Below are positions 25,890 to 54,993 of a DNA stretch of 64,000 nt, one piece after another. Under the pieces are notes generated by a model, which saw nothing but the letters and a program-made list of their open reading frames with translations, was not told where the DNA came from and ran no database searches. Made by a program: the position numbers and the translations under genes. The stretch comes from Chloroflexota bacterium (GTDB lineage: Bacteria; Chloroflexota; Dehalococcoidia; JACPEP01). Every line of letters starts with the position of its first letter. Within the stretch, counting starts at the first letter, position 1. The DNA lies in NCBI GenBank assembly GCA_016183425.1, contig JACPEP010000015.1, positions 62,001-126,000 on the forward strand, read 5' to 3'.

Positions 25890-26021
25890 GTTATGTGACG
25901 CTACCGGGGGCTTGACAACTGTCACGTGATGGATTACACTTGATGTGTGATCAAGAGCTTCGCAGACAGACACACGCAGGAATTGTTCGAGACCGGCCGG
26001 AACAATGGCTATCATGCCTAA
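25890..26021 (+). pseudogene. truncated higB cassette remnant
   Basis: From GTTATGT at 25890 the sequence matches the intact higB cassette from 28085 for about 112 bases with only four differences. It includes the promoter TTGACA-17-TACACT and the GTG start (25947), and then diverges after codon 18; the frame stops at TAA 26019-26021 after 24 amino acids. So only the first 18 or so residues of the toxin survive. The match begins exactly at the attC R' core triplet. Confidence 0.8.
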
Positions 26022-26331: not shown

Positions 26332-26719
26332 TACGAACATCTGGCTGTACGCCTTCATCGAAACGGATGACACGTCGAAGTCTCCAACTGCACGCACCCT
26401 GATTCAAGAGAGTGAGCCTGTAGTCAGTACCCAGGTAATCAACGAAGTGTGCGTCAATTTGCTGCGACGCGCGAACTTCACCGAAGAGCAGGTCAGCCGC
26501 CTTGTCGAGTCGTTCTACGAGAAGTACCAAGTTATCGAGTTGACCAAGTCAGTCTTGCTGATGGCGTCTCAACTGCGCCAGCGGTATTCGCTATCCTTCT
26601 GGGATAGCACAATCGTGGCGACTGCATTGAGTGCTGGTGTTTCCGTTCTGTATTCTGAAGACATGCAGCACGGATTGACCATTGACCAACAACTTCAGGT
26701 ACGCAATCCATTTGTCTAG
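26297..26719 (+). CDS. vapC: PIN-domain toxin (VapC family)
   Basis: The 140-residue PIN protein has the acidic active-site residues in CFIDTNIWLYAF (Asp near residue 12), STQVINEVCVN (Glu), FWDSTIVATAL (Asp) and VLYSEDMQHG (final acids), all intact. VapC toxins are metal-dependent endoribonucleases, often cutting tRNA or rRNA. The gene overlaps the antitoxin start region, and its stop codon TAG (26717-26719) lies at the left tip of the MITE-like element. Likely functional as a pair. Confidence 0.88.
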   Translation: MPDHQATTCFIDTNIWLYAFIETDDTSKSPTARTLIQESEPVVSTQVINEVCVNLLRRANFTEEQVSRLVESFYEKYQVIELTKSVLLMASQLRQRYSLSFWDSTIVATALSAGVSVLYSEDMQHGLTIDQQLQVRNPFV

Positions 26720-26870
26720 TACTTGCTTGCATAAATCCCTAGTCGATAAGAAGAATCACCTCTCCCTTGATGGGAGAGGTCCGGGTGAGGGTGAAATTGA
26801 AACCCCCTCACCTTAATCCTCTCCCACAGAGGGGCGAGGAAATGTTTAGGCTTCTACGCACCTAAGTACT
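26718..26870. mobile_element. 153-bp MITE-like element, copy 1
   Basis: Ends are imperfect inverted repeats: AGTACTTGCTTGCAT at the left and, read inverted, AGTACTTAGGTGCGT at the right. Interior is a palindrome-rich stretch (CCTCTCCC-TTGAT-GGGAGAGG and a CCCCTCACC/GGTGAGGG pair). It has no coding capacity. A same-length copy lies at 29575-29727 in the same orientation, differing at one internal base and in the first few bases. The two flank the cassette/TA block. Confidence 0.75.
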
Positions 26871-26935
26871 AGAGACAGGGCGGATTGTTTTGACTGCCGA
26901 ATTCAGTGACATACGTCGTCCAAGAACAGACCGCC

Positions 26936-26960: not shown

Positions 26961-27094
26961 GTCCTCTTTCAAGCCAACGGCCCGAACTATCATGATATAC
27001 CCCCCTGGACACGTCCCAAGGCAAGTGATAATATCCTGTCCGGACACAATATCCGCATAAAAGATACTGTTTGGCATTGCAATAGGGAGGCTAG

Positions 27095-27432: not shown

Positions 27433-27525
27433 GCCCAACAACGCGCTCCAGCCGGACGCCCTCGCTTCGCTCGGGTTCCCTCGTTCGCTGCGCTCACTCG
27501 GCGCCGCTGAGCGCGGGCGTTATCT
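27433..27525 (+). other. attC-like recombination site 1
   Basis: GCCCAAC (RYYYAAC, 27433-27439) at the left and GTTATCT (27519-27525) at the right. The inner arms pair as CGCGCT-C-CAGC with GCTG-AGCGCG, leaving one unpaired C as expected for the extrahelical base of attC. The 93-bp length is normal. It follows the small membrane-protein gene and precedes the 27546 gene. Confidence 0.7.
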
Positions 27526-27545
27526 GTATAGCTGAAAGGGAGCGA

Positions 27546-28028: not shown

Positions 28029-28091
28029 AGGTAACAAGCGCTTCCAGCGTCCGCTGCGCTCCATTGCCGCCGGTGAGCTTCGCCGTTATGT
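28029..28091 (+). other. attC-like recombination site 2
   Basis: AGGTAAC at 28029-28035 (close to the inverse core) and GTTATGT at 28085-28091 (core). The left arm AAGCGCTTCCAGCG is shared with 26943 onward. Pairing of the inner arms is weak compared with the other sites, so this is the least certain by structure, yet homology to the remnant at 25890 begins exactly at its GTTATGT core. Confidence 0.55.
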
Positions 28092-28106
28092 GACGCTACC
28101 GGGGGC

Positions 28107-28135
28107 TTGACAATTGTCACGTGATGGATTACATT
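28107..28135 (+). promoter_or_regulatory. higBA promoter with palindromic operator
   Basis: TTGACA (28107-28112), 17-base spacer, TACATT (28130-28135). A perfect 12-bp palindrome TGACAATTGTCA (28108-28119) overlaps the -35 box, a natural site for autorepression by the HigA/HigB complex. In the remnant at 25.9 kb the palindrome has one substitution. Confidence 0.7.
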
Positions 28136-28141
28136 TGATGT

Positions 28142-28423
28142 GTGATCCAGAGCTTCGCAGACAGACACACGCAGGAATTGTTCGAGACCGGTCGGTCCAA
28201 GCAATTGCCGCCAGATATACTGCGGCGGACGAGGAGAAAGCTCGAGTACATCGACTTGGCGGCGCGTCTGGATGACCTTCGGGTTCCTCCGGGAAATCGA
28301 CTCCACAAGCTCGGGGGAGACCGAGAAGGACAGCACGCGATCGCCATCAACGACCAATGGCGCATTTGCTTCCGGTTCATGGCCGGTGATGCTTACGATG
28401 TCGAAGTTACGGATTGTCACTGA
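28142..28423 (+). CDS. higB: HigB-type toxin (RelE superfamily)
   Basis: The 93-residue toxin has the usual HigB start MIQSFADRHTQELFETG, then ARLDDLRVPPGNRLHKLGG and the C-terminal AIAINDQWRICFRFMAGDAYDVEVTDCH that holds the RelE-fold strands and catalytic-type basic and aromatic residues. HigB toxins cut mRNA on the ribosome. GTG at 28142 is the start, 15 bases after the expected +1. The antitoxin follows downstream, the reverse of RelBE order and normal for HigBA. Confidence 0.9.
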   Translation: MIQSFADRHTQELFETGRSKQLPPDILRRTRRKLEYIDLAARLDDLRVPPGNRLHKLGGDREGQHAIAINDQWRICFRFMAGDAYDVEVTDCH

Positions 28424-28436
28424 AGTGAGGTGAAAA

Positions 28437-28751
28437 ATGAGCATTCCGAACACAAGGAAAAGGGAAGTGCGTCCTATCCACCCGGGCGAGATGCTTCGGG
28501 AGGATTTCCTTCCCGACTACGGGCTCACGGTTTCGGGTCTCGCTCAGGCGGTGGGCGTTTCACGCCAGACCGTGAATGAATTGCTGCGTGAGCGCCGGTC
28601 GGTAAGCCCGGAGATGGCGCTCAGGCTTTCGCGTCTGTTTGGCAACTCTCCCGAGTTTTGGCTCAACGCGCAGCGTGCGGTGGATTTGTGGGATGCAGCC
28701 CAGGAGATCGGTCTGGAGGTCGAGCGGATCAAGCCCTTGACCGTCGCATAA
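28437..28751 (+). CDS. higA: HigA-type antitoxin (XRE helix-turn-helix)
   Basis: The 104-residue protein starts with the HigA family signature IHPGEMLREDFLPDYGLTVSGLAQAVGVSRQTVNELLRERRSVSPEMALRLSRLFGNSPEFW, a clear helix-turn-helix. It neutralises HigB and binds its own promoter palindrome. A segment VRPIHPGE marks the usual N terminus. Its stop TAA (28749-28751) lies inside the inverse core of attC-like site 3, so the pair forms the cargo of one cassette. Confidence 0.92.
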   Translation: MSIPNTRKREVRPIHPGEMLREDFLPDYGLTVSGLAQAVGVSRQTVNELLRERRSVSPEMALRLSRLFGNSPEFWLNAQRAVDLWDAAQEIGLEVERIKPLTVA

Positions 28752-28842
28752 CACGCCGCTTCAGCGGACGGGCGCCATGAGATGTGTGTGGTTGCTCTTA
28801 CCCCTCCCCCACTGCGCCCGCCGCTGAGCGCCACCGTTAGCC
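28746..28842 (+). other. attC-like recombination site 3
   Basis: GCATAAC (28746-28752) and GTTAGCC (28836-28842). Arms pair closely: CAGCGG-A-CGGGCGC with GCGCCCGCCGCTG leaves an extra A, and GCT-T-CAGCGG with CCGCTG-AGC leaves an extra T. These unpaired bases on one strand are the structural mark of attC. The 97-bp length and the overlap with the higA stop codon support a cassette end. Confidence 0.75.
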
Positions 28843-29463: not shown

Positions 29464-29574
29464 TCCTGTAGACTATCAGGTGGCAAGGCCGAAGGCCAGG
29501 CTGAAAGTTCTTAATATCGTCCCCCCAGCTCCACCAGCAAGCAGTCGTGCGTTTTCTCCCCTCTATCTCTAACT

Positions 29575-29727
29575 ACTATTTGCTTGCATAAATCCCTAGT
29601 CGGTAAGAAGAATCACCTCTCCCTTGATGGGAGAGGTCCGGGTGAGGGTGAAATTGAAACCCCCTCACCTTAATCCTCTCCCACAGAGGGGCGAGGAAAT
29701 GTTTAGGCTTCTACGCACCTAAGTACT
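29575..29727. mobile_element. 153-bp MITE-like element, copy 2
   Basis: Same length and orientation as copy 1 at 26718-26870. The left tip reads ACTATTTGCTT instead of AGTACTTGCTT, the right tip AGTACT is identical, and there is one further internal difference (A to G). It ends the cassette/TA block. High identity means recent movement or recombination between the copies. Confidence 0.75.
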
Positions 29728-29770
29728 ATACCCTAAGTTTACTTCATCTGAGACCCTCTCAGATTCTATG

Positions 29771-52182: not shown

Positions 52183-52386
52183 ATTAAACCCGCTGAGCGA
52201 GACTTTGTACCTTTCCCCCCCATTAGCTAACATGGTAGCCGCTTAGACTATGGTACATCCCGGGAGACTTGTCAAGAAAGCTCCTCACGGAAGCCAAGAG
52301 CGCGAATTATGCGGATGTGACGCTCTTGATATGCGCCAGAGCCAGTGATAAGATGCTGTCGAAACAGAATACGGATATAAGGCACT

Positions 52387-52393
52387 GTTAGGC
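52387..52393 (+). other. core-site sequence at the left end of the second cassette region
   Basis: GTTAGGC, a perfect GTTRRRY. No attC arms are seen to its left, so it may be the left border of a cassette insertion in the intergenic DNA upstream of the NUDIX gene, next to an inverted repeat AAGAGCG/CGCTCTT nearby (52291-52330). Confidence 0.4.
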
Positions 52394-52397
52394 TGCT

Positions 52398-52586
52398 ATG
52401 AATCGCTCGGCACTGCTTATAGTGGGATGGATCGAAGAAGTCCCCGGAGTCAATTGCCAGGAAAAAACCTATGAAGAACTGAAAGAAACCTTGGCGGTTA
52501 CGTTAAAAGAGGCGTTGGAATTTAATCGTCAGGATGCGCTAACGGCTGCTGGCAGCGGATACAAGGAAGAAAAAATTGCCGTATGA
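52398..52586 (+). pseudogene. hicB, 3' part (damaged antitoxin gene)
   Basis: VGWIEEVPGVNCQEKTYEEL and KETLAVTLKEALEFNRQDAL are the middle and C-terminal parts of a HicB-like antitoxin. The first eight residues (MNRSALLI) are not HicB-like; the real start lies at 53338, where the 5' part ends in the same 34 bases. The gene is therefore split and rearranged. Confidence 0.7.
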
Positions 52587-52681
52587 AGAGAAGTGAGCTA
52601 CTCTGGTATCTGCGTAGCCGGGGATGTGAGCCTTTGAGAGAAGGTGCTAAACATTCTGAGAAATGGTATGCTGGTAAATGA
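52583..52681 (+). pseudogene. truncated hicA toxin gene
   Basis: ATGA-overlapped with hicB; the 32 codons read like the start of HicA, MKRSELLWYLRSRGCEPL with REGAKHSEKWY, including the catalytic-type His. It stops at TGA 52679-52681, before the beta strands that complete the fold. Probably inactive. Confidence 0.7.
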
Positions 52682-52693
52682 AAAGAGGCCCAT

Positions 52694-52894
52694 ATGGAAG
52701 CACTAATCAACACAAACCAGCTTAAAGAGCTACTTAAAGCAGCCCTTGTGGAAGTACTCGAGGAACAGCGCGATTTGATTCACGATATCGTTGAAGAGGC
52801 TATGGAGGACGTTGCACTCGCCCGTGCAATTGAAGCAGGTAAGAGCACGGAGAACGTGAGTCGAGATGAAGTCTTCAAACTTCTGCAGGGGTAA
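52694..52894 (+). CDS. RelB-like antitoxin
   Basis: The 66-residue protein is helical and acidic, with LKELLKAALVEVLEEQRDLIHDIVEEAMEDVALARAIEAGK, a form common in antitoxins paired with RelE-type toxins. It lies two bases before the toxin start, in the usual order. ATG 52694 has AAAAGAGG upstream. Assignment rests on position and composition more than on a firm motif. Confidence 0.75.
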   Translation: MEALINTNQLKELLKAALVEVLEEQRDLIHDIVEEAMEDVALARAIEAGKSTENVSRDEVFKLLQG

Positions 52895-52896
52895 GC

Positions 52897-53163
52897 GTGA
52901 ACGTCGGATTCAAAGCCAGCTTTGCAAAAGACCTGCAGAATATTATAGAAAAGAGTATATTGAAGCGCATTCAAGAAACTATTGAGCATGTCGAGCAAGC
53001 TCAAAGCCTGCGAGATATTACAAATCTGAAGAAACTGAAGGGCGGGAGTAACTACTACCGTATCAGGGTTGGAGAGTATCGGGTCGGGATAATCGTTGAG
53101 GGCGACGAAGTCTCTTTCGTACGATGCCTCAGCCGAAAAGAAATCTATAGGTATTTCCCCTGA
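52897..53163 (+). CDS. RelE/ParE-type toxin
   Basis: The 88-residue protein is a RelE-fold toxin: MNVGFKASFAKDLQNI, KLKGGSNYYRIRVGEYRVGIIVEGDEVSFVRCLSRKEIYRYFP. The RxxxGxYRVG core and C-terminal RKxxYR match ribosome-dependent mRNA interferases. GTG is the start. The stop TGA (53161-53163) is three bases before the attC-like site. Confidence 0.9.
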   Translation: MNVGFKASFAKDLQNIIEKSILKRIQETIEHVEQAQSLRDITNLKKLKGGSNYYRIRVGEYRVGIIVEGDEVSFVRCLSRKEIYRYFP

Positions 53164-53166
53164 ACC

Positions 53167-53224
53167 GCCTAACACTGGGATGGAGCCGACTCGCTACACT
53201 CGCGGCTCGTCCCGGGCGTTAGAT
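53167..53224 (+). other. attC-like recombination site 4 (short)
   Basis: GCCTAAC (53167-53173) and GTTAGAT (53218-53224) both fit the consensus perfectly. The arms GGGATGG-AGCCG and CGGCT-CGTCCC pair with one extrahelical G. At 58 bp it is a typical short attC. It follows a RelBE-type TA pair. Confidence 0.78.
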
Positions 53225-53337
53225 AGCCGAGTGCATGAGCAAAGCGCCACATCAGCTACGTTGATTACTGGCAGCGATGCGCCGCGCCTGTTGCCCACCG
53301 TAAGCGGCAACAAGCGAAAAACCAGGAGGTAAAAACC

Positions 53338-53419
53338 ATGAAAAACATTTATACGGCTGTCGTAAAAAAGGCAGACGATTGGTGGGTGGGATGGATCGAA
53401 GAAGTCCCCGGAGTCAATT
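53338..53419 (+). pseudogene. hicB, 5' part
   Basis: ATG 53338 after CAGGAGG gives MKNIYTAVVKKADDWWVG and then WIEEVPGVN, a normal HicB-like N terminus. The reading after this point is not HicB-like and runs into the convergent nicotinate phosphoribosyltransferase 3' end. The last 34 bases (53386-53419) are identical to 52422-52455. Confidence 0.75.
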
Positions 53420-53456: not shown

Positions 53457-54452
53457 CTACAGAATGCGCTCCAGGCGAGGGTTGAGGGTCCGGCCCGGGA
53501 TGCGGCCTCGCTTGGCCACGGGGCGGCCCTCTACCTCCTTAAGGTCCCCCGTGAAGTCGATGGGTTTAGCGCCGCTGATATAGCTGCCCACCCCAAAGCC
53601 ATCCACGGGAGCGCCGCTATCGACGAAAAAGCGTATGCGCTCCGGGTCCAGCCCGCCGCTGACGAAGATCTTCACCTCCGGAAAGCCCGCCAGGTTCAGG
53701 CGCGCTCGTACCTCCTTGACCAGATCCGGGGTTACTCGGCCGCGTTCTGAAGGGGTATCCAGGCGGACGCCCTGAAGCTTTCCCTGAAGGGCTTGCGCTA
53801 CCAGCAGGCTCTCCTCCGCTTCGTCTTTGAATGTGTCCACCAGGGAGATACGGGGTACTTCAGGGGGCATATGGCGTTGGAAAGCCAGGGTGGCGGCGAC
53901 GGTATCTCCCATGCAGATGATCAAGGCGTGGGGCATCGTTCCGGCCGCGGCCACGCCCGCTATCTCCGCTCCTTCGATGCTGGAGCAGGATACACAACCC
54001 CCCACTACGGCGGCGTAATCCATGATACCTGCCACTCGAGGGTGGACGTGGCGGGCACCAAAGCTGATAATAGGTACGTCCCCGGCCGCGGCCACACACT
54101 CTCGAGCGGCAGTGGCCCAGCCGCTACAGTGGGACAAAATACCCAAAATGGCCGTCTCATATACGCCATAGCTTTGGTAGGGGGCGGTAATGCGCAGCAC
54201 CACCTCCTTACGGCCCATGGGTTGCCCCTCGGGCAGAGCCCATACTTCCCCGCCTTGAGCGGGCGGCAACACCGCTTCCAGAAGCTCCTTCACCTCCTCC
54301 ATGCCACATAGGATTCCTTCCCGGCTGGAAAAGACCTCCATGGTGGCCACCGGATTGATCCCTTCCTTCTCCAGGATGATCTTGGTGCGGAGGAAGTAGA
54401 TATCAGTAGTCCCGCCGGAGATGACGGCCTGTGGTATTCGGAAGCGAGCCAT
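53457..54452 (-). CDS. pncB: nicotinate phosphoribosyltransferase
   Basis: The enzyme joins nicotinate and PRPP in the Preiss-Handler NAD salvage path. Visible parts: RIPQAVISGGTTDIYFLR, SHCSGWATAARECVAAAG, FGARHVHPRVAGIMDYAAVVGGCVSCSS, LVDTFKDEAEESLLVAQAL, and the C-terminal GGLDPERIRFFVDSGAPVDGFGVGS with the phosphate loop. 331 residues. ATG 54452 is preferred; upstream frame overlaps the pncA stop. The cassette insertion ends 37 bases beyond its stop. Confidence 0.92.
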   Translation of the reverse strand: MARFRIPQAVISGGTTDIYFLRTKIILEKEGINPVATMEVFSSREGILCGMEEVKELLEAVLPPAQGGEVWALPEGQPMGRKEVVLRITAPYQSYGVYETAILGILSHCSGWATAARECVAAAGDVPIISFGARHVHPRVAGIMDYAAVVGGCVSCSSIEGAEIAGVAAAGTMPHALIICMGDTVAATLAFQRHMPPEVPRISLVDTFKDEAEESLLVAQALQGKLQGVRLDTPSERGRVTPDLVKEVRARLNLAGFPEVKIFVSGGLDPERIRFFVDSGAPVDGFGVGSYISGAKPIDFTGDLKEVEGRPVAKRGRIPGRTLNPRLERIL

Positions 54453-54465
54453 GCCCTCTTCCTGT

Positions 54466-54993
54466 CTAGTCCTCAATCTTCACCAGGCGAACGCCCAAGA
54501 TTTTCCCCATATGCTCCAGGGCGAAGCCATGAGCCTCCTCATCGAAGGTGGCCACCCCGTCCACCGGAACCTCCACACGGTAGTCCCGATTGCGGGCATC
54601 GGCGGCGGTGTGAAGAACGCAGATATTGGTACACACCCCGCAGATGACGATCTTTTCCGGCCCCAGTTGCTTAAGGCGCTGTTCCAGGTCGGTGCCGAAG
54701 AAGCCGCTGTAGCGGGCCTTGGGGATCACCTCCCCTGGATAGGAAGCCAGCTCGGGGATCACCTCCGCCTCCACGGTGCCCGCTATGCAGTGAGGGGGAA
54801 ACATCTGGAACTCCAGGTCATCGGGTTTGTGTTGGTCGCATATAAAAAAGATGTGGGAGCCCCGTTTTCTTTCCCTCTCCAGCAGCTTCTGGATACGGGG
54901 GATGATTTGGCGCGCCCTCTGGCCGCAGTAGAGGGGGTATCCCTCTTCGCAGAAGCCCCGAAGCATATCTATTACAAGCACTACGTTAGCCAT
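54466..54993 (-). CDS. pncA: cysteine hydrolase (nicotinamidase-like)
   Basis: Isochorismatase-like fold: LVIDMLRGFCEEGYPLY with the catalytic Asp, HKPDDLEFQMFPPHC with metal-type residues, a Lys in IPKARYSGFFGTDL, and the nucleophilic Cys in ICGVCTNICVLHTAADAR. Adjacent to pncB (13-base gap) it is most simply a nicotinamidase that supplies nicotinate, as in the standard PncA-PncB pair. ATG 54993 is used. Confidence 0.85.
   Translation of the reverse strand: MANVVLVIDMLRGFCEEGYPLYCGQRARQIIPRIQKLLERERKRGSHIFFICDQHKPDDLEFQMFPPHCIAGTVEAEVIPELASYPGEVIPKARYSGFFGTDLEQRLKQLGPEKIVICGVCTNICVLHTAADARNRDYRVEVPVDGVATFDEEAHGFALEHMGKILGVRLVKIED

Follow-up and report, generated by a model that had tools for sequence, protein, structure and literature searches.

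A relBE cassette locus with a putative promoter-attI element and no detectable integrase in a genome of the Dehalococcoidia

Integrons are organized as platforms composed of intI, attI, Pc and a cassette array (PMC11023631, PMC12901181). In the classical arrangement only the first cassettes are expressed, because the platform offers a single attI and a single Pc (PMC11023631). Clusters of attC sites without an integrase have been described as CALINs (PMC9668308), and delta-attI-type cassettes terminate at their 3' end in an attI instead of an attC (PMC12901181). Here we describe a locus within a 64-kb stretch of Dehalococcoidia DNA (64,000 nucleotides, hereafter termed the window), which we interpret, with a probability of about two in three, as a cassette locus of the integron type that lacks an integrase. 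In this interpretation the locus is composed of a promoter-attI element, a complete cassette (C1) and a truncated second cassette (C2), and it carries the remnants of two hicBA cassettes.

Architecture of the cassette locus

The features of the locus are compiled in Table 1. No intI is adjacent to the putative attI, which is flanked on the left by a NUDIX and a GNAT gene. The element contains the hexamers TTGATA and TAAGAT at a distance of 17 nt, followed by ATATAAGGCACTG↓TT, where the arrow denotes the crossover point. Cassette C1 starts at this junction and extends over 831 bp, with a 34-nt head preceding the 3' part of hicB, a broken hicA, relBE and finally the attC. Its start GTTAGGC is complementary to R'' (GCCTAAC) of its own attC without a mismatch (7/7), and the cassette is thus, as judged from the sequence, joined at the G↓TT of an attI. 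An antitoxin gene followed by that of a ParE/RelE-superfamily toxin constitutes a module of the RelBE/ParDE type, and among the loci fetched the nearest relative of the toxin is encoded on a cassette of the intI-linked array in genome G119. The locus holds no intact pair of hicB and hicA, as hicB is split and hicA encodes only 32 residues, a truncation that had already been recognized in a sequence-only reading of the window.

The attC of C1 is a real attC site. It is the only match to the pattern CCTAAC-N30-60-CGTTAG in the 64 kb, where 0.09 would be expected, and it carries R'' and R' cores on a bottom strand that folds into an attC hairpin (z = -2.46, with 5 of 200 shuffled sequences being equally stable). 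An alignment of 13 attC sites displays compensatory changes at 12 of the 18 helix pairs. The site starts three bases 3' of the relE stop codon, as had been reported. Its cores, earlier described as perfect, both fit the consensus (GCCTAAC and GTTAGAT) but are mutually complementary at just 5 of 7 bases.

Table 1. Features of the cassette locus and of array 1 within the window.
Feature	Position	Strand	Basis
Putative promoter-attI element (orphan attI type 1, ~70 bp)	52319-52387	+	Homologous copies in this genome and in eight further genomes of the class; alignment; geometry; end of conservation at GTT
Predicted -35 box, TTGATA	52326-52331	+	Within element 52319-52387
Predicted -10 box, TAAGAT	52349-52354	+	17-nt spacer from -35 TTGATA
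Crossover G of element	52387	+	Junction G↓TTAGGC at 52387/52388
Complete cassette C1, TTAGGC ... GGGCG	52388-53218	+	Start vs own R'' match 7/7
ORF of cassette head (52398-52421) and hicB 3' part (52422-52586)	52398-52586	+	Direct reading; HicB comparison
34-bp repeat, copy 1	52422-52455	+	Repeat search
Truncated hicA, 32 aa	52583-52681	+	Direct reading; hicA intact in G119
RelB-like antitoxin	52694-52894	+	Pfam PF25734, 1.4e-17
RelE/ParE-superfamily toxin	52897-53163	+	Pfam PF05016, 6.1e-8
attC of C1, 58 nt	53167-53224	+	Last six bases TTAGAT are part of C2
Head of second cassette C2 (TTAGAT...), ending against pncB end	53219-53419	+	Direct reading; comparison with G058
hicB 5' part in C2	53338-53419	+	Direct reading; comparison with G058
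34-bp repeat, copy 2	53386-53419	+	Repeat search
pncB-like gene (nicotinate/quinolinate phosphoribosyltransferase), intact right neighbour	53457-54476	-	Gene annotation
Second putative promoter-attI element, heading array 1	27003-27074	+	Crossover G ~27068; alignment; matched stretch 26991-27079
attC, array 1 cassette 1	27433-27526	+	attC scoring, start/R'' match
attC, array 1 cassette 2	28029-28091	+	attC scoring, start/R'' match
attC, array 1 cassette 3 (higBA)	28746-28842	+	attC scoring

Relatives of the promoter-attI-like element

When used as a query on its own genome (G000), the locus returned one extra match, an 82% identical copy of the 73 bases to the left of C1. In total, three copies of the element were identified in this genome, two of them within the window. 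A model of these three copies retrieved matches in 12 other genomes of the class at E ≤ 0.01, the weakest of which are probably due to chance. With a model of 20 copies, 393 genomes of the class Dehalococcoidia were searched at E ≤ 0.001, and nine of them contain the element, with 26 copies in total and 12 in G023. These searches employed a first-look filter that may miss weak copies. With the same model no element was found outside the genome G000 in a draw of 400 genomes from the phylum. Searches of plasmids and, with an exact pattern, of viral contigs did not reveal the element either, the locus was not found in phages and no match to a known RNA family was detected at the site in Rfam.

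In nearly all copies, a TTGACG-like hexamer is followed after 16-18 nt by a TANNAT-like one. The two boxes resemble TTGACG-17-TANNAT and constitute a predicted cassette promoter (Pc) upstream of the attI, and the same copies end with AAAAGACACTG↓TT or a near variant. Of 20 aligned copies, 13 have a distance of 61 nt between the -35 box and the G, which is also the value at our locus, and the range over all copies is 57-63 nt. In a conservation profile of 21 rows, one of them probably a chance match, for which GTT served as anchor, most of the last dozen positions up to GTT carry 1-1.9 bits of information each. Values of 0.4-1.1 bits were obtained for the four bases that constitute the core of the following cassette, and further downstream the values are low and for the most part close to zero. 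In each of the eight element-cassette pairs tested, the bases following the G pair with R'' of the first cassette's own attC at 6-7 of 7 positions (p = 0.0004 for the eight cassettes located directly at an element). If all 13 cassettes are considered, the match between a start and its own R'' amounts to 85 of 91 positions (mean 6.5/7), compared to a mean of 66.4 upon permutation, with none of 100,000 permutations being as good. Since conservation stops at G↓TT and the cassette starts pair with R'', the ~70-bp element has the appearance of an attI preceded by a cassette promoter. The idea that the element would itself be a hybrid attC forming a hairpin was rejected by direct reading, as the arms beside its ends are not complementary.

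Downstream of the elements, 13 attC sites were detected on the same strand and none on the opposite strand within 35 kb, while control loci contain none at the same score in 160 kb. The underlying scoring matrix was trained on sites of G000 and of contig C53 of G023, which leaves G292, G346 and contig C96 of G023 as independent cases. Over half of the copies have no recognizable attC within 1.5 kb, among them all four copies in G027 and most copies of G023 outside C53.

The locus had been described as a second cassette site, which is an undercount, as five such sites are visible in the genome. Array 1 is located within the window behind the second element (Table 1). It is surrounded by a 156-bp direct repeat of 98% identity (26716-26871 and 29573-29728). 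The head of its higBA cassette is found twice in the window (25890-26005 and 28085-28200, 116 bp, 95% identity, 2.2 kb apart), with the left copy being truncated and followed by a PIN-domain toxin gene. This copy starts at G↓TTATGTG, 52 nt after a promoter-like sequence TTGACG-17-TATACT. The array on contig C15 (L194, 2980-4260) has an unrelated head with TTGACA-17-TAAACT and 61 nt to G↓TTAGGC. At the C21 site (L195, ~3790-2880, minus strand), the head is homologous to the attI beside a decayed intI of G119, with none of 1000 shuffled sequences scoring as well. The type 1 elements, to which that of our locus belongs, show a marginal likeness to this intI-adjacent attI. The first cassette at C21 encodes a TIR-domain protein (PF13676, 7.3e-31).

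Contig C53 of G023 harbours four successive elements in a stretch of less than 5 kb, and each of them is followed by one or two cassettes. Behind one of these elements, the first cassette (L071, 2774-3472) codes for an FRG-domain protein with a match to the phage-defence candidate PDC-S15 (2.7e-56). Similar genes for N6/N4 DNA methylases are located directly behind an element in G023 and G058, which are from different families (L073, 4710-5684; L079, minus strand). The left half of an attC is found just upstream of the element in 4 of 27 sites (array 1 and C21 of G000, contig C230 of G058 and C53 of G023), where ~0.4 would be expected, and it is absent at the element of our locus. It is thus possible that some copies may have spread as part of cassettes.

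A search for the integron integrase in the genome with TIGR02249 yielded best partial matches of 83 and 56 bits to XerC/D-like proteins, compared to a cut-off of 265. The IntI-like matches in this genome comprise XerC/XerD-like proteins, a disrupted tyrosine recombinase on contig C33 and phage-type integrases. No protein above the cut-off was found in seven other element-bearing genomes or in G346, and the matches in the element-bearing genomes align without the integron-specific middle part of IntI. As the assembly is about 95% complete, an integrase may be missing from it. Full integron integrases were found in three genomes of the class, G163, G142 and G069, where no copies of the element were detected, nor were any found beside IntI genes of the class. 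The full-length IntI of G142 (L126) and G163 (L128) are not accompanied by a recognizable attC array in the stretches fetched around them. In G069 (L127, 2785-3591) a full-length IntI is found together with a cassette array in the same orientation, whose first cassette starts with GTTAGGT and matches its R'' ACCTAAC at 7/7 positions.

Origin of the two hicB pieces

The sequence-only reading had described a hicB gene in two pieces that share an exact 34-bp direct repeat at a spacing of 964 bp, which join into an intact gene, and had proposed that a circle of this size had integrated or that a cassette-sized piece had been duplicated in tandem. The repeat is as described and so is the 5' part, whereas the 3' part starts at 52422 instead of 52398, since the bases 52398-52421 belong to the cassette head, which by chance supplies an in-frame ATG to the hicB piece. 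The assignment of the joined pieces to an intact hicB holds, as full-length relatives of the 70-residue joined HicB are found uninterrupted in G119 (75% identity), G156 (65%) and G150 (60%). Contig C230 of G058 carries a contiguous hicB that shares 93% identity with one piece (199 nt) and 92% with the other (114 nt), and the pieces are therefore parts of one kind of gene. No HicB relatives were found in the plasmids and viral contigs searched. In G119, an intact hicBA leads directly into the left arm of an attC, which indicates that such a hicBA travels as a cassette. The sequence-only reading had not noticed the attI-like element ending in G↓TTAGGC at 52387/52388. With this left boundary, the natural circle would be the 831 bp of C1, and the two pieces are found in two successive cassettes.

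In the reading that we favour, the G↓TT of the element would have recombined with the attC of the 831-bp circle, thereby docking a cassette at one of several dispersed promoter-attI sites. The docked cassette, in which relBE is intact and the hicBA head is broken, could be transcribed from the predicted promoter of the element. C2 would have begun with the same hicB and lost its remainder in a deletion extending up to the end of pncB. Both pieces would thus be remnants of two copies of one hicBA cassette, cut from opposite sides, and the 34-bp repeat would be the mere overlap between them. This reading builds on the element family, the cassette ends, the attC fold, the contiguous hicB in a relative and the lack of a detectable IntI. 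We further infer that recombination was catalysed by an IntI that either acted in trans or has meanwhile been lost, that the promoter drives transcription and that the deletions occurred in the proposed order. A truncated cassette copy elsewhere in the window, the higBA head that is present twice, adds support. Conversely, the reading has to accommodate that no integrase and hence no recombinase for the site was found in a genome that is 95% complete, that more than half of the element copies have no recognizable attC and that type 1 elements only weakly resemble an intI-adjacent attI. It would also imply a coincidence of probably ~3-4%, if two truncations were to leave an overlap of at most 34 bp in a 964-bp unit (34/964). 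Mobile integrons rarely contain tandem duplicates of the same cassette (PMC12901181), which argues somewhat against two adjacent hicBA copies, although this observation comes from a setting with an active integrase. Microhomology between attC and hicB (TGGGATGGA) was considered as a cause of the left break and rejected on direct reading, as the flank does not fit.

Part of this evidence would suit a mobile promoter, a dispersed repeat next to which cassettes came to lie by chance or by attG-type insertion. Besides the frequent lack of attC sites, the sigma-70-like promoter in nearly all copies and the absence of a nearby intI would be in line with this view. We still consider it unlikely, since the conserved block stops exactly at the recombination point and the next bases are each cassette's start (p = 0.0004). 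The integration of a 964-bp circle (TTAGAT-hicB-hicA'-relBE-attC) via hicB rather than attC, with the 34-bp duplication left behind, has the merit of explaining the overlap by a single event. The junction GGGCG↓TTAGAT at the locus is exactly the one expected in such a circle, and joining the repeats restores a canonical hicB. The ends of this circle match at 5/7 positions, compared to 7/7 for the 831-bp circle and below all 13 cassettes (6-7/7), a value that would be expected if hicBA and relBE cassettes had fused. Since neither flank resembles hicB beyond the 34 bp, there is no target for a simple homologous single crossover, and on the left flank attI and cassette are joined perfectly. We thus regard this integration as quite improbable, and while the sequence-only reading of an integron-type site with a real attC and with both pieces derived from one kind of gene stands, its circle is less well supported. 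Highly improbable appears an assembly artefact, in which a metagenome assembler would have joined the paths of two strains or of a circle at the repeat. The genome is distributed over 52 contigs and 34 bp are short enough for a join in a low-k graph, but both repeats are interior to a 135-kb contig and the left part, with element, TTAGGC and cassette end, is coherent by a cassette logic that is independent of hicB. A comparison with 40 relatives drawn, none closer than class, revealed pncB with an isochorismatase-like neighbour and without NUDIX or GNAT genes beside it, and no unoccupied site.

Relationship to described integron systems

A tentative extension of the reading as an integrase-less cassette locus, which we consider possible but doubtful, is that of a decentralized integron in Dehalococcoidia. 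Promoter-attI copies would be distributed across the chromosome, some in a cassette-terminal position, and each insertion would add a promoter and an entry point under the action of a rare or transient integrase in trans. A genome equipped with several promoter-attI sites could express a number of cassettes simultaneously and take up further ones in many places. This would help to explain fixed and expressed single toxin-antitoxin or defence cassettes in lineages without detectable integrase. The element also provides a sequence handle for sites that searches based on intI or attC clusters would miss.

With the integron platform, the locus shares attC sites, cassette ends, the G↓TT junction and a predicted promoter upstream of the first cassette, whereas it differs by the lack of an adjacent intI, with none detected in the genome, and by attI-like sites that occur several times in a genome rather than once. 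Like CALINs, the sites described here carry cassettes without integrase, and array 1, with three attC sites, and the arrays on contigs C45 and C15 qualify by their attC number. In contrast to CALINs, these arrays are headed by a conserved promoter-attI, the head of C15 being unrelated in sequence but equal in geometry, and the C1/C2 locus contains one attC, where CALINs have at least two. The location of some elements directly after an attC left half, as if an attI had taken the place of the preceding cassette's attC, is reminiscent of delta-attI-type cassettes. Known cases of the latter are remnants of attI1 or attI2 in mobile class 1 and 2 integrons (PMC12901181), whereas in the present case a genome contains up to 12 repeats of the complete promoter-attI. 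Finally, as in attG-type insertions, cassettes are inserted outside of a classical integron, but while attG diverges from classical att sites, a conserved 70-bp element marks the sites described here. A literature search, with subscription journals outside its reach, retrieved no paper on multiple attI sites. The presumably new part of the arrangement would be the dispersed promoter-attI docking sites, which are integrase-less and number up to 12 per genome.
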